From: Marinobacterium jannaschii DSM 6295 | GTDB lineage: Bacteria; Pseudomonadota; Gammaproteobacteria; Pseudomonadales; Balneatricaceae | Reading direction: 5' to 3' | Length of the DNA: 60,069 bases | NCBI RefSeq assembly: GCF_000620085.1 | Contig: NZ_JHVJ01000033.1 | Coordinates: forward strand, 1 to 60,069 | In this document: piece by piece, positions 2,655 to 8,320 of the stretch | Layout of the letters: each line of letters starts with the position of its first letter | Numbering within the stretch: position 1 is the stretch's first letter | Made by a program: the position numbers and the translations under genes | The notes under the pieces: generated by a model | The model's database searches: none | Seen by the model: only the letters and a program-made list of their open reading frames with translations | What the model was told of the DNA's origin: nothing

Positions 2655-3191
2655 ATGGAATGGATTCTTCTACCACTGGTGATTTTCGCCGTGCTGATGG
2701 TTTTGCTGAAAGCAAAGGCTAACAGCGAAAACAGCGCCGACACCACCGATCAAAGCAGCAGCCTCGGCTACCGGCCTAAGGGCGCACTCTTTACCCCTGC
2801 AGAACGCTCCTTTCTTGGTGTTTTAGATCAGGTTGTGGATAACCGCTACCGGGTCTTTGGCAAGGTGCGTGTTGCCGACCTGATCGAACCCCAACCCAGC
2901 CGTAACCGCAGCCAGTGGCAGCGAGCCTTTAACGCCATCAGTTCTAAGCATTTTGACTTTGTGATCTGCAAGGCCGGTGACCTGACACCGGTCTGTGTGA
3001 TTGAGCTGGATGATAAAAGTCATAACGCCAAAAAGCGCCAACAGCGGGATCAGTTCCTGGGGAGCGTTTGTAAAGATGCGGAATTACCTTTAATTCGTTT
3101 CTCAGCCAAGCAAGGCTACCAGTTGAATGAAGTAAAGGCTCGATTGGCGGAGAGCTTAGTGCATCGGAATCCGATTGGTCAGTGTAAATGA
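2655..3191 (+). CDS. DUF2726 protein with N-terminal membrane anchor (nuclease-fold family)
   Basis: The 178-residue protein has a single N-terminal membrane segment (about residues 3-19), a short polar linker, then a DUF2726 domain (about 45-165). Family hallmarks are FTPAERSFL (46-54), RVFGKVRVADL (66-76), the SSKHFDFVI segment with D101, and VIELDDKSH (115-123) followed by K/R-rich residues ending at D132. The D...ExD arrangement fits a PD-(D/E)XK-like endonuclease fold. That assignment rests on family resemblance, and the substrate is unknown. AGGGAA lies 6 bases before the ATG. The gene sits alone in the accessory region, 121 bp before the sce7726/sce7725 cassette and on the same strand, but its base composition is closer to the core. 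Confidence 0.8.
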   Translation: MEWILLPLVIFAVLMVLLKAKANSENSADTTDQSSSLGYRPKGALFTPAERSFLGVLDQVVDNRYRVFGKVRVADLIEPQPSRNRSQWQRAFNAISSKHFDFVICKAGDLTPVCVIELDDKSHNAKKRQQRDQFLGSVCKDAELPLIRFSAKQGYQLNEVKARLAESLVHRNPIGQCK

Positions 3192-3256
3192 AACAGGTAA
3201 ACACAGCTAAGGCATTAGAGTGGTATGTAGCTCAGAGGTGCTCGCAGCGTCTATCA

Positions 3257-3279
3257 GAGTATGTATCTTTGATATACTC
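3257..3279. promoter_or_regulatory. Inverted repeat upstream of the sce7726-like gene
   Basis: GAGTAT (3257-3262) is repeated inverted as ATACTC (3274-3279). A weak sigma70-like promoter overlaps it: TTGATA at 3269-3274 and either AATACT (3292-3297) or TACTAT (3294-3299). The placement suits an operator controlling the two-gene cassette, by inference only. Confidence 0.4.
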
Positions 3280-3312
3280 ATAGATTGCTGCAATACTATA
3301 TCCCTCTGATTA

Positions 3313-3329
3313 ATGAGTGAATTACTCAT
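3313..3329. promoter_or_regulatory. Palindrome covering the start of the sce7726-like gene
   Basis: ATGAGT-GAATT-ACTCAT is a perfect 6-bp inverted repeat with a 5-base centre. Its left arm is the first candidate start codon and its right arm lies just before the second candidate (ATG at 3328). It could be a repressor site or an RNA hairpin hiding the translation start. Confidence 0.4.
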
Positions 3330-4197
3330 GAACATAAATATATCAACACAACGTGAGTATCAACTGCTAAGCAAGGTTTTTAGCCGAAGTATAATATCAG
3401 GCTTAGCTAGGCATGGTGGTAGTGCTGATCTTGAAAGAATTTTGAGCGAAGTAGGACGCGATAAAATTGATCTTGATAGTGTAAGTTTGTTAGATTTTTT
3501 TGAAGGTTGCTTTGAAAAGCTTAAAGTTAATTATAGAAACGAATATGTATTTAAGAATGCAATAGCTACAAAGATAGTGAGGGGGCGGCATAAGCTATCG
3601 AACTGCCACTATATATCAGAATTCAAGGTTGGAAGATCTATTGCTGATGTAGCGGTTTTTAATGGGACGTCAACGGCCTATGAAATAAAAAGCTCATTTG
3701 ACTCTTTTGAAAGATTAAGAGATCAGATTGCATCGTACTCCAGTGCTTTTGATAAAGTGTACGTGGTTGTTCCTAAAGAAAAGGTTGATAAAGTATTTCT
3801 ACATATTGAGGATCATATAGGCGTTTACGAACTAACCGATCGATACTCACTATCTCAGGTTAGAGAAGCTGAATCAAACATAGATAATATCTGTAGTGAT
3901 AGCATATTGGGGTGTTTGAGAAGGGGAGAGTATCTAAATATTGTAAAGAATAAATATGGCTATATCCCATCAGGGAAACCATCGGAAATAAAGAGGGAAG
4001 TTGCGAATATTTTTCGGAATATGAGTAAGGATCAACTTCATCGTGAATTTGTGCATGCAATGAGGAAGAGAGGGATTTCAAAATCTGAGAAAGATATCTT
4101 GAGTCAAATGCCTGCCTCTATAATATCTTTATTGTTGAGTGAGAGGCTAAATGAAAGACTGCTTAAAAGCTTATATTTAAAGCTTCATGTGAGATGA
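3313..4197 (+). CDS. sce7726-family protein, probable PD-(D/E)XK nuclease
   Basis: The 294-residue protein resembles the family named after Sorangium cellulosum sce7726. The middle domain (about residues 75-155) has the layout of a restriction-endonuclease-like core: E77 in NEYVFKNAI, E103 in ISEFKVG, D112 in SIADVAV, E124 and K126 in AYEIKSSFD, and Q138 in the following helix, then the strand KVYVVVP. D112 and E124-I-K126 are the presumed catalytic residues. The C-terminal 130 residues are basic and helical and could bind nucleic acid. The coding sequence is AT-rich (24 of 60 bases G+C at 3541-3600), unlike the core. It is followed after 27 bases by its usual partner, an sce7725-family gene. 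No clear ribosome-binding site marks the start: ATG at 3313 or at 3328 are both possible. A defence role is plausible but is inference. Confidence 0.8.
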   Translation: MSELLMNINISTQREYQLLSKVFSRSIISGLARHGGSADLERILSEVGRDKIDLDSVSLLDFFEGCFEKLKVNYRNEYVFKNAIATKIVRGRHKLSNCHYISEFKVGRSIADVAVFNGTSTAYEIKSSFDSFERLRDQIASYSSAFDKVYVVVPKEKVDKVFLHIEDHIGVYELTDRYSLSQVREAESNIDNICSDSILGCLRRGEYLNIVKNKYGYIPSGKPSEIKREVANIFRNMSKDQLHREFVHAMRKRGISKSEKDILSQMPASIISLLLSERLNERLLKSLYLKLHVR

Positions 4198-4224
4198 CTT
4201 TATAAATTGTAAAGGAGTACGATA

Positions 4225-5181
4225 ATGTATCATTGTTATTTGAGAGGAAAGCAGTATGAACTTTTGGCAATAAGGGAGGCAGCTTCTAAAATATATGAAA
4301 GTGGATCTGTTCCGATAATAGAGCCTGTAAGGGAAGGAACTAGAGATCTTATTAAGTGTATTGATGTGCTTTCTAAGGCAAAGGCTCAATATATAGTTGT
4401 AGCTAATCCTCAGGTTGGAGATATGTCTAAGAGCCAGGCAAAATCTGAGGCTGTAATTGATATCGTAGTCTCAAATTATCCTGAAACAGAGCTTGCTTTT
4501 ATTGTCAATGAAGATGTGTCTCTAAGCCAAGTGGAGCACTTTTTGCAGAGATATCCAAATCAAGTTTTTAGTATTATCCATAATGGAAGATTCGGTGATG
4601 TAGCCGGTCTGAAAAATTTTCTCAGTGAAAATTCTAGATTAAATAAGCACTTCTTCATAAAAAATGATTGCAGTACATCTTATCGCGATGGCTTTGAGGG
4701 AAGTAAGCTCGTATTGATTGAAGATGGGTTCAATAGAAGGAGCCCTAATGCTGAATATGCTAATAAGTTAGAAGAGTTTTTCTCAGATCTCTATTTGACG
4801 TATAAGGAAAGTGGCTATATTGGGTTCGGTGACTTTTCAATAATTGGTGACCACTATAGTGAAGGAGGAGGGCAGGCTATCACTGCTGTTCTCCACATTA
4901 CTTATAAAGGAGAGGACGAAATTAATATTCGACATTTCCTGTCTGACCCTAGGAAAGTGCCGGAAGAGGTTCCAATTCTTCTAGAAGAAGCGCTAGGAAA
5001 GCTGGAAGAGTTCTTGAGTGAAAACCAAGACATTTTAGAGTGGTCGGAAGCGTGCCAGCAGCTGATGACTATTTATGAAGGTGGTTGCCAAACGAATCTA
5101 GCAACGATGAAGAAGCTTACAATAAGGCATCACTTTGAGCTTATGCATCGTATCTCTGTGGATCGACAGGCTGAACAGTGA
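4225..5181 (+). CDS. sce7725-family protein, partner of the sce7726-like nuclease
   Basis: The 318-residue protein opens with YLRGKQYELLAIRE (5-18) and SVPIIEPVRE (28-37), the signature start of sce7725-family proteins. It also recalls the phage Beta_protein family, whose members start with a K-Q-G/Y-E-L motif and a PxIE strand. A later conserved block is GFGDFSIIGDHYSEGGG (200-216), followed by IRHFLSD (235-241). Biochemical function is unknown to me. An alpha/beta barrel-like fold is suggested by regular beta strands ending in charged residues. AAGGAG lies 8 bases before the ATG, and the gene is co-directional and close to the nuclease gene, so co-transcription is likely. It is strongly AT-rich (17 of 60 G+C at 4621-4680), a sign of transfer. 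A hairpin terminator follows. Confidence 0.8.
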   Translation: MYHCYLRGKQYELLAIREAASKIYESGSVPIIEPVREGTRDLIKCIDVLSKAKAQYIVVANPQVGDMSKSQAKSEAVIDIVVSNYPETELAFIVNEDVSLSQVEHFLQRYPNQVFSIIHNGRFGDVAGLKNFLSENSRLNKHFFIKNDCSTSYRDGFEGSKLVLIEDGFNRRSPNAEYANKLEEFFSDLYLTYKESGYIGFGDFSIIGDHYSEGGGQAITAVLHITYKGEDEINIRHFLSDPRKVPEEVPILLEEALGKLEEFLSENQDILEWSEACQQLMTIYEGGCQTNLATMKKLTIRHHFELMHRISVDRQAEQ

Positions 5182-5222
5182 TGGTATTTACCTGACAGCG
5201 CCTCCCACTTCAGTAACAATTT

Positions 5223-5247
5223 AGGCAGCTTAATCAGCTGCCTTTTT
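5223..5247 (+). terminator. Rho-independent terminator of the two-gene cassette
   Basis: A perfect 8-bp stem (AGGCAGCT 5223-5230, AGCTGCCT 5236-5243) with loop TAATC is followed by a run of T. It lies 42 bp past the sce7725-like stop and closes the cassette. Confidence 0.85.
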
Positions 5248-5368
5248 GTGTGCCCGAAGTAGCCACGATGAATCAACCCAGACAGACACGACCATACAAG
5301 GATTGGGCGATGTAAACGCTATCCGCGCGCAGTTCTTAGCGCGCCACGCGCCGCTCCGAAGGCCCACA

Positions 5369-5404: not shown

Positions 5405-5464
5405 GCTTTTAAGCTGTTGCGCTTTTAGCGCGCCGCTCGCAGCGCGCTTCGCGTAGCTCTGTTG

Positions 5465-8320
5465 TTACAGCGCTTCGATCTTAGCGTACTGCTCAGCCAG
5501 CTTGGCATGGGCAGACTTGGCTTCTTCCAGTTTCTCGCGCTCTTTGGCGATTACGTCCGCAGGGGCGTTGGAGACGAAGCGTTCGTTGCTCAGTTTGCCT
5601 TCGAAGCGGCTGACTTCCTTCTGCAGCTTGTCCAGGGACTTCTGCAGGCGGGCCAGTTCGGCGTCTTTGTCGATCAGGCCGGCCATCGGTACCAGCACTT
5701 CCATGTTGCCAACCAGCTGGGTGGCGGACATCGGTGCTTCGTCGCCCGGGTTGAGCCAAGTGATCTTCTCAACGGAGGCCAGCTTGGACAGGAAGGCTTC
5801 GTTGGCTGCCAGACGTGTCTTGTCTGCTTCGCTGCCGTTGTTGAACAGCACGTGCAGTTCCTTGGCCGGGGAGATGCCCATCTCACCACGGATATTACGG
5901 ATACCGGTGATCACGCCTTTCAGCCAGTTGATCTCGGCGACGGCGCTGTCGTCGATCTTGCTGTTGTCGGCAACCGGGTAGGGCTGCAGCATGATGCTGT
6001 CGCCTTCGGCACCGGCCAGTTCCTTGATGGACTGCCAGATCTCTTCGGTGATGTACGGCATGATCGGGTGCGCCAGACGCAGCAGTACTTCCAGTACGCG
6101 CACCAGGGTACGGCGGGTGCCGCGCTTGGCTTCGGCAGAAGCGTTGTCGTCCCAGAGTACCGGCTTGGACAGCTCCAGGTACCAACCGCAGTACTCGTTC
6201 CAGATGAAGTCGTACAGGGTGGAGGAAGCCATGTCGAAGCGGTATTCGTCGAAGTGCTTGGTGACTTCGGCTTCAACGCGCTGCAGCTCACCGGCGATCC
6301 AGCGGTCAGCCAGGGAGAGTTCTACCTCGCCACCGTTCTGCCCACAATCTTCGCCTTCGGTGTTCATCAGCACGTAGCGGGCGGCGTTCCAGATCTTGTT
6401 ACAGAAGTTACGGTAGCCTTCCAGACGCTTCATATCCCAGTTGATATCACGGCCGGTGGAGGCCAGTGCTGCCAGGGTGAAGCGCAGGGCGTCGGTGCCG
6501 TGGGCAGAGATCCCTTCCGGGAACTCTTTCTGGGTACGCTTGCCGATCTTCTCGGCCAGCTGCGGCTGCATCATGTTGCCGGTACGTTTTTCCAGCAGGG
6601 CGTCCAGCTCGATGCCGTCGATCATATCCAGCGGGTCCAGTACGTTACCCTTGGACTTGGACATCTTGTCGCCGTTTTCGTCGCGGATCAGGCCGGTAAC
6701 GTAAACGGTCTTGAACGGAACCTGTGGCGTGCCGTCTTCGTTCTTCACCAGATGCATGGTCATCATCATCATACGGGCAACCCAGAAGAAGATGATGTCG
6801 AAACCGGTTACCAGCACGTCGGTCGGGTGGAAGGTGTTCAGACGCTCGGTCTGTTCCGGCCAGCCCAGGGTACCGAAGGTCCACAGGCCGGAGCTGAACC
6901 AGGTGTCCAGCACGTCGTCGTCCTGTTTCAGTTCGAGGTCGGCGGCCAGGTTGTACTTCTCGCGCGCGGCATCGGCGCTGCCCGCAACGTAGACGTTGCC
7001 TTCATTGTCGTAGAAGGCCGGGATACGGTGGCCCCACCACAGCTGACGGGAGATACACCAGTCCTGGATATCGCGCATCCAGGCGAAGAACATGTTTTCG
7101 TACTGTTTCGGTACGAATTTGATGTCGCCGTTTTCGACTGCTTCAACTGCAGGCTTGGCCAGGGTCTTGGCGTCGGCAAACCACTGGTCGGTCAGCATCG
7201 GCTCGATCACCACGCCGCCACGGTCGCCGTACGGGATGGTCATATCGTTTTCTTCGATTTTTACCAGCAGGCCGGCGGTTTCGAAGTCGGCGACGATTTC
7301 GCGACGGGCGGCGAAGCGCTCCATGCCACGGTATTTTTCCGGGATGGTGACGTCGACGTCGTTGTTCGGAGTGCCGTCGGTGTTGAAGCCTTCGCCTTCG
7401 TCGCGGATATCGGCGTTGAAGGTGAGGACGTTGATCATCGGCAGGTTGCAGCGTTTGCCGACTTCGTTATCGTTGAAGTCGTGTGCCGGGGTGATCTTCA
7501 CACAGCCGGTGCCTTTTTCCATATCGGCGTGTTCGTCAGCGACGATCGGGATACGGCGGCCGACCAGTGGCAGTTCGACAAACTTGCCGATCAGGCTCTG
7601 GTAACGCTCGTCGTCCGGGTTAACCGCGACGCCGGTATCGCCCAGCATGGTTTCCGGACGGGTGGTGCCGACGACGATGTGGTCTTCACCGGCAGCGGTT
7701 TTCTCGCCATCGGCCAGCGGGTAGCGCAGGTACCACATCTTGCCCTTAACCTCTTTGTTTTCCACTTCGAGGTCGGATATGGCGGTGTGCAGTTTCGGGT
7801 CCCAGTTAACCAGGCGCTTGCCACGGTAGATCAGGCCTTCGTCATACAGGCGGATAAACACTTCCTGAACGGAGTTGTAGAAGCCTTCATCCATGGTGAA
7901 GCGTTCGTTTGCCCAGTCAACGGAGTCGCCGAGACGGCGCATCTGGCGGGTGATGTTGCCGCCGGATTCCTCTTTCCATTCCCAGATTTTGTCGATGAAG
8001 TTTTCACGGCCCAGGTCGTGACGGGTCTTACCCTCTTCAGCGGCCAGTTTACGCTCTACCACCATCTGGGTGGCGATACCGGCGTGGTCGGTGCCGACCT
8101 GCCACAGGGTGTTTTTACCCTGCATGCGCTTGTAGCGAGTAAGCGCGTCCATGATGGTGTGCTGGAAAGCGTGACCCATATGCAGGCTGCCGGTGACGTT
8201 CGGCGGCGGGATCATGATGCTGTAGGCTTCACCTTCGCCGGAAGGGGCGAAGTAGTTGTTGTCTTCCCAGGTTTTATACCAGGATTTCTCTATCTCATGG
8301 GGCTGGTAGGTTGTATCCAT
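5465..8320 (-). CDS. valS: Valyl-tRNA synthetase
   Basis: This 951-residue class Ia synthetase charges tRNA-Val and edits mischarged threonine. The HIGH-type signature is [13 protein letters not shown] (38-50). The editing (CP1) domain includes [14 protein letters not shown] (216-229). KMSKS is at 552-556 within the [11 protein letters not shown] segment, and the WISRQLWWG-type motif appears as [11 protein letters not shown] (421-431). A coiled-coil tail (about residues 885-951) ends in an alternating Lys/Glu/Ala helix, normal for ValRS. It is the last gene of the pepA-holC-valS order, as in many Gammaproteobacteria. A good minus-strand -10 (TATAAT at 8418-8413) in the holC-valS gap suggests it also has its own promoter, although no matching -35 is clear. 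Confidence 0.98.

Follow-up and report, generated by a model that had tools for sequence, protein, structure and literature searches.

A two-gene sce7726-sce7725 cassette of Marinobacterium jannaschii as a possible RES-less form of a modular phage-defence unit

Among the closest described systems to the sce7726-sce7725 gene pair of Marinobacterium jannaschii DSM 6295 considered here is the gop-beta-cII locus of satellite phage P4, which gives E. coli protection against lambda and P1 and in which gop is toxic without beta, according to the accessible part of Rousset et al. 2022 (PMC9122126). Elsewhere, the available portions of the sources list a sce7726-sce7725 pair in Leptospira (PMC12457778), sce7726 with a beta-family protein, as unknown (PMC13414232), and RES, sce7725 and sce7726 together without function in an integrative and mobilizable element of P. 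aeruginosa PA_HN002 (PMC9394441). The NCBIfam descriptions of the two families (NF033832 and NF033831) give names with no stated role. Our literature search, which excluded most subscription papers and bioRxiv preprints, found no sce7726-sce7725-RES operon described as a defence system, and combining RES or gop with defence terms returned, among the matches listed, the P4 paper and no account of such an operon. The pair lies near one end of contig NZ_JHVJ01000033.1, positions 1 to 60,069 of which were analysed and are called the window below. We read it as a modular nuclease-plus-barrel unit in a two-gene variant that lacks RES, and at a probability of about 0.5 as a horizontally acquired, compact phage-defence unit (abortive-infection or toxin-antitoxin-like) in a minimal form. 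It looks like a stripped-down modular defence unit because its relatives usually carry a RES gene and its P4 cousin protects against phages.

The product of the first gene scored 181.3 bits against sce7726_fam (NF033832, cut-off 70) over residues 75-253 and is thus a member of that family; PADLOC labelled it 'cll' (6e-20). Its AlphaFold2 model (predicted local distance difference test score 94.2) shows a PD-(D/E)XK nuclease fold with helical N- and C-terminal regions and a predicted active-site set of E103, D112, E124-x-K126 and Q138. The model matched the structures of 3dnx, PaqCI, XisH, NucS and Can2; the closest solved structure was SPO1766 (3dnx), a protein of unknown function, and resemblance extended to the restriction or modification-dependent endonucleases PaqCI, BsmI and AspBHI. 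An earlier annotation of the window (the original prediction) had proposed a nuclease core of D112, E124, K126 and Q138, and this proposal was borne out, as all four residues were invariant in the 98 sequences of our alignment A6. With a D...(E/D)xK core on an alpha/beta fold, the modelled protein falls in the PD-(D/E)XK superfamily and is predicted to be catalytic. The nuclease residues were unchanged in both long and short forms of sce7726, an argument that cutting is important in each of them. Both reading frames of the pair are intact in the window and keep residues that their families conserve fully or almost fully.

The second protein scored 276.5 bits against sce7725_fam (NF033831, cut-off 60) over residues 2-310, again establishing membership, and was modelled as an (alpha/beta)8 barrel, a single TIM-like domain. 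The invariant residues of the barrel include E33, D203, H224, H237 and H302/H303. The original prediction likened this protein to the phage Beta family, and the likeness holds as distant homology. A profile-profile comparison (hhalign) aligned sce7725 with Beta over its full length (295 of 320 columns, E 1.5e-4), pairing GFGDF with YGDY and the C-terminal HH of the two families. The sole match of the sce7725 model in BFVD at E <0.001 was a 379-aa protein of Gordonia phage Powerball (E 3.2e-9, template modelling score 0.67 by query length, root-mean-square deviation 5.5), giving the barrel a Beta-family fold; P4 beta was not among the 50 BFVD matches listed. We equated this entry with Powerball gene 33 by phage name and length and not by accession. 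Gene 33 (379 aa) is itself related to Beta by sequence (tblastn E 1e-13; 91 bits with our own Beta hidden Markov model, HMM), and gene 32, convergent to it and overlapping it, is a sce7726 relative (137 bits with our own HMM); a tyrosine integrase is encoded nearby. Because the profile comparison and the Powerball structure match agree, we place sce7725 in the Beta superfamily as a probable distant homologue, outside PF14350 itself.

To see the pair among its relatives, we scanned genome contigs with a 7-sequence sce7725 alignment, which yielded 403 confirmed loci, and kept the best 80 (near-copies L030-L032 included). A sce7726 gene lay 5' of sce7725 in 79 of the 80 (it was not found in L038), and a RES-type open reading frame (ORF) lay 3' of sce7725 in 79, a few of these split or cut by a contig end; as only the best 80 of 403 loci were kept, the RES figure is biased towards kin of the query alignment. 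The single RES-less locus was L028 (Ca. Thiobius), which ranks first among the window's relatives. Gene order and the first two genes are therefore the same here as in the relatives, with a gap of 27 nt against a median of 4 nt (range -143 to 200, n=79), and the sce7725-RES gap of the relatives has a median of 0 nt (range -245 to 862, n=79); the window differs in having no third gene, and thus no RES directly 3' of sce7725. The original prediction of a conserved pair was right as to sce7726 and sce7725, but the usual unit is a trio. All five third proteins scanned matched PF08808 RES, and over 87 third proteins, viral and plasmid ones among them, R165, R167, R192, N194, Y202 and E213 were among the invariant residues and a CxxC...CxxC pair was nearly invariant. 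RES enzymes phosphorolyse NAD+, according to the available part of PMC9503650. The third gene of the relatives thus belongs to the same toxin superfamily (PF08808) as that of RES-Xre toxin-antitoxin modules, but its partners are a nuclease and a barrel instead of an Xre antitoxin, and the window carries no RES at all. The trio was also present in records of Salmonella, Moraxella and Pseudorhizobium, with RES annotated in all three, and sce7726 and sce7725 found by our own HMMs in all three and annotated by name in two; Rheinheimera and Zoogloea are further examples of relatives with a trio. Other relatives were located on plasmids and viral contigs; an Enterococcus plasmid locus has sce7725 followed by a GNAT gene, no RES and a divergent first gene.

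The branch that includes the window lacks the RES gene that adjoins most relatives examined. In a 105-row tree, the window, L028 and the viral locus L108 formed a clade (support 100/95) whose members are all without RES. Across the tree the RES label required 5 changes, 4 of them forced by well-supported branches, compared with 13.4 when the labels were shuffled. A search of the window's genome (99.8% complete) returned no PF08808 match. For viral contigs, 26 of 46 loci were removed before counting as near-copies, cut or broken (L112-L119, L132, L136-L145, L151; L120, L148-L150, L152, L153), and close kin remained among the 20 kept (L131/L133/L147, L126/L128, L129/L130). RES was absent from 11 of these 20, and a phage integrase gene adjoined the pair in 5 of the 11, those 5 being the ones tested. 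The RES-less state recurs in prophage-like contigs.

A census of 369 genomes of the window's class, screened for sce7725, Beta and sce7726, found these families in 4, 7 and 8 genomes, respectively. All 8 sce7726 genomes had sce7725 (4) or Beta (4) adjoining sce7726 (chance 2e-14 if genomes are independent), so the predicted co-occurrence of the two families was observed; three Beta genomes had no sce7726 match. In one genome (G097, L022 6016-7168), sce7726 is intact and the pair is broken, since the sce7725 frame ends after 89 aa. The constant core was accompanied by varying third genes: RES, Gop (P4), HigB with M78, or none seen. Ahead of Beta we observed HigB and an HTH/M78-like gene (L025), HigB and M78 (L234), DUF6932 and HTH/M78 (L023), M78 alone (L026, L233, L236), gop in P4 and an XRE-annotated gene on plasmids, and no in-line gene in L024, Rhodococcus and Rac-SA53. 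The Beta genes (PF14350) that follow M78 (ImmA/IrrE) genes, which HigB or DUF6932 precedes in three loci, could possibly form a separate toxin-regulator-Beta system. In 16 of 27 plasmid records with a Beta match, the matched stretch is listed with a sce7726 gene. Escherichia phage Rac-SA53 (L246), E. coli plasmid pSTEC1024_3 (L244) and a Rhodococcus plasmid (L243) have convergent Beta-sce7726 pairs beside which neither gop nor RES is annotated; L246 and L244 have a hok-type gene nearby on the other strand, with hok/mok about 500 nt away in Rac-SA53.

Compared directly with P4, the window shares both core components. P4 cII, annotated as sce7726 family, has 30% identity to the window protein (tblastn, E 2e-6) and the same E/D/ExK/Q residues, and P4 beta is a distant homologue of the window's sce7725. 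The statement that the role of such genes is not established is thus partly out of date, given the anti-phage activity published for gop-beta-cII (PMC9122126, accessible part) and the 'cll' label of the first gene.

The two ORFs were found where the original prediction had them, co-directional on the plus strand and forming an operon with a common 3' end (Table 1). The terminator it proposed corresponds to a hairpin with a T run, a pattern that gave 4 matches in the region against a mean of 1.9 in shuffles. The window's ORF list holds no further plus-strand ORF of at least 80 aa starting between 3191 and 5461, and the sole ORF between 5181 and 5465 is one of 60 aa. The G+C content of 3313-5181 (1869 nt) is 37.3%, compared with a window mean of 55.7% (standard deviation 4.3%) for such stretches; only 6 of 1164 sliding stretches of this length were lower, and all 6 overlap the pair. 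Both local counts given previously were exact on recomputation (17 of 60 at 4621-4680, 36 of 60 at 6001-6060). Conserved DNA beside the cassette begins at 5463-5469, the end of a gene that we take from its translation to be valS, in 5 of the 6 related genomes that were searched (3 of them are congeners); the remaining one, a congener whose genome is fragmented, had no match there. No sce7725 turned up among 95 other relatives, 4 of which are congeners. The low G+C, the edge of the core alignment and the missing sce7725 in relatives together identify the pair as an insert acquired beside a core gene, as had been proposed. The DUF2726 gene upstream has similar DNA at other places in two of the family's genomes and was judged to be host flank, outside the unit. 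An insertion sequence, also claimed for this region, rests on a 92-aa rve_3 transposase fragment at 2-277, where the contig starts. Separately, direct repeats at 289-583 and 1955-2226 (66 nt at 95%, 161 nt at 83%) flank a minus-strand ORF at 628-1464 and may point to a further inserted unit within this accessory region.

Table 1. Features of the cassette and its borders in the window.
Feature	Coordinates	Strand	Remarks
DUF2726 gene, upstream	2655..3191	+	PF10881, 5e-41; 51% G+C
sce7726-family gene	3313..4197	+	294 aa, first gene of pair
AGGAG, likely ribosome-binding site of second gene	4213..4217	+	read from sequence
sce7725-family gene	4225..5181	+	318 aa, second gene of pair
Repeated 3' boundary element, motif ACAGTGATGGTATTTACCTGACAG and terminator	5174..5247	+	junction of AT-rich insert and core DNA
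Intrinsic terminator-like hairpin and T run, common 3' end of pair	5223..5243	+	pattern match
Presumed valS	5465..8320	-	ORF list; conserved core gene bounding the accessory region

The neighbourhoods of relatives were screened for defence genes with 132 ORFs from those 44 of the 80 loci that span 16,880 nt or more and a control of 139 ORFs from 20 arbitrary stretches in 11 genomes of the class that consist of one or two contigs (threshold E<=1e-10). The neighbours gave at least one match each to KwaB, PtuA, RT-Toprim, type I MTase, PDC-M01A, PDC-S24 and PDC-S32, at least five to mad2 and two to mad3, and in Pfam at least two to ArdA and four to Phage_integrase. The control gave at least four matches to mad3 and two to mad8, and at least one each to PDC-S02, RtcR, dGTPase, GajB, CARF_2OG, PD_DExK and RTasHel. 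As these counts cover the best 25 of 129 (neighbour) and 67 (control) PADLOC families and the best 25 of 111 and 193 Pfam families, the defence-island association proposed for the pair is at best mildly positive.

Our reading of the pair as a compact defence unit takes the constant core of the family to be a PD-(D/E)XK nuclease (sce7726/cII) and a TIM-barrel partner (sce7725/Beta), which phage would trigger. In the two-gene form the nuclease would probably be the effector, killing the cell or cutting phage DNA, and the barrel its controller, either restraining the nuclease or activating it when it senses a change brought about by phage; the signal might be a small molecule or a protein that binds inside the barrel. 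Where relatives have three genes, RES (of the NAD+ phosphorylase family) or Gop would add a killing step or take its place. More tentatively, and at somewhat less than even odds, sce7726/cII with sce7725/Beta may be a widespread two-protein immune core with interchangeable killers (RES NAD+ phosphorylases, Gop, or HigB RNases by way of HTH/M78 regulators), the window's core acting plug-in-free, with the nuclease killing and the barrel sensing. A TIM barrel would in that case serve as an immune sensor or antitoxin. Several observations weigh against the defence reading. The relation of the second gene to P4 is distant, with an hhalign probability of just 52%, and no Pfam match, Beta_protein PF14350 included, was found for sce7725 at E<=1, which makes it a homologue and not a member of that family. 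The RES-less clade is built on long branches and is therefore supported, not certain, and the missing RES gene could mean that the killing part was lost. P4 has gop, and its cII is convergent to beta, whereas the window pair is co-directional without a gop-like gene and so not a three-gene system of that kind; toxicity in P4 is attributed to Gop, not the nuclease, and P4 gop/beta is the sole precedent for assigning the window pair to a toxin-antitoxin class (PMC9122126, accessible part). Defence-gene enrichment was weak, and no activity data were found for any sce7725/sce7726 pair.

The strongest alternative is that the third gene (RES, Gop or HigB) kills and sce7725/Beta is its antitoxin or sensor, the window's branch having lost the killer so that the pair persists as an anti-addiction or decoy module. 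The near-constant RES gene of the best 80 loci, the toxicity of gop without beta (PMC9122126, accessible part) and the position of Beta behind M78 genes, themselves preceded by HigB or DUF6932 in three loci, all favour this explanation. However, an orphan would be expected to decay, and both window frames are intact with residues that the family conserves fully or almost fully; the RES-less state is common to a deep-branched clade and recurs in prophage-like contigs, and the Rac-SA53 and Rhodococcus pairs have no in-line third gene annotated. We consider loss of the killer unlikely on balance.

Still less probable is direct restriction by a single complex, in which the barrel would recognise either a nucleotide or DNA that is foreign or modified, and phage DNA would be cut by the nuclease with no cell death. 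The tight coupling of the genes and the likeness of the nuclease to PaqCI, BsmI and AspBHI would fit such a complex, but the barrel model is one TIM-like domain with seemingly no obvious DNA-binding module, no other gene in the cassette could encode a methyltransferase, and the partners of its kin include toxin families. An ordinary mobile pair with a role unrelated to phage, such as plasmid or prophage maintenance or DNA repair, is similarly doubtful, as the uncharacterised SPO1766, the matched repair endonuclease NucS and the relatives on plasmids and viral contigs speak for it, and the anti-phage P4 homologue (PMC9122126, accessible part) and a patchy distribution (sce7725 in 4 of 369 genomes) against it.

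The 3' edge of the cassette carries a repeated element that may mark where a mobile gene cassette ends. The ACAGTGATGGTATTTACCTGACAG element was also found at G000 C14:111253-111328, C6:78265-78297 and C3:205184-205208, in L192, L173 and L193, and at contig ends in L217 and L221. It is often followed by a terminator hairpin. In several genera of the family it lies at the 3' boundary of accessory inserts that are AT-rich and differ in cargo, which includes sce7726/sce7725, an HD_assoc protein, a weakly HNH-like gene, a tyrosine recombinase and a DUF1643 gene. The pattern gave 24 matches in 116 genomes against 3 for a backward control pattern. Of 27 distinct matched places, 22 had sequence on both sides; a G+C step of at least 0.10 was seen in 7, which were those first found by whole-element similarity, and not in the other 15, which were 2-mismatch matches of a shorter pattern. 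No left end was found, as the best candidates for an inverted left copy had 7-10 mismatches of 24 and were taken as chance. Integron-type core sites were not consistent, and a tyrosine recombinase, considered as a common feature of the element's genomes, was present in only one of 10 (G378). At least five copies of a repeat of about 70 nt with AGGACACCCAC lie a few hundred bases apart in G000 C6:77001-95000 (L224), and a related copy on C3 (L225) stands directly ahead of the boundary motif.

The analysis joins pieces that were kept apart in the databases and papers searched, namely two role-less families, P4 gop-beta-cII and the RES toxins. If the defence reading is true, one nuclease-plus-barrel core would be common to satellites, prophages, plasmids and chromosomes of many phyla, with effectors swapped around it. 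For the question of how the core acts alone, the RES-less branch that includes the window is the most clear-cut case.
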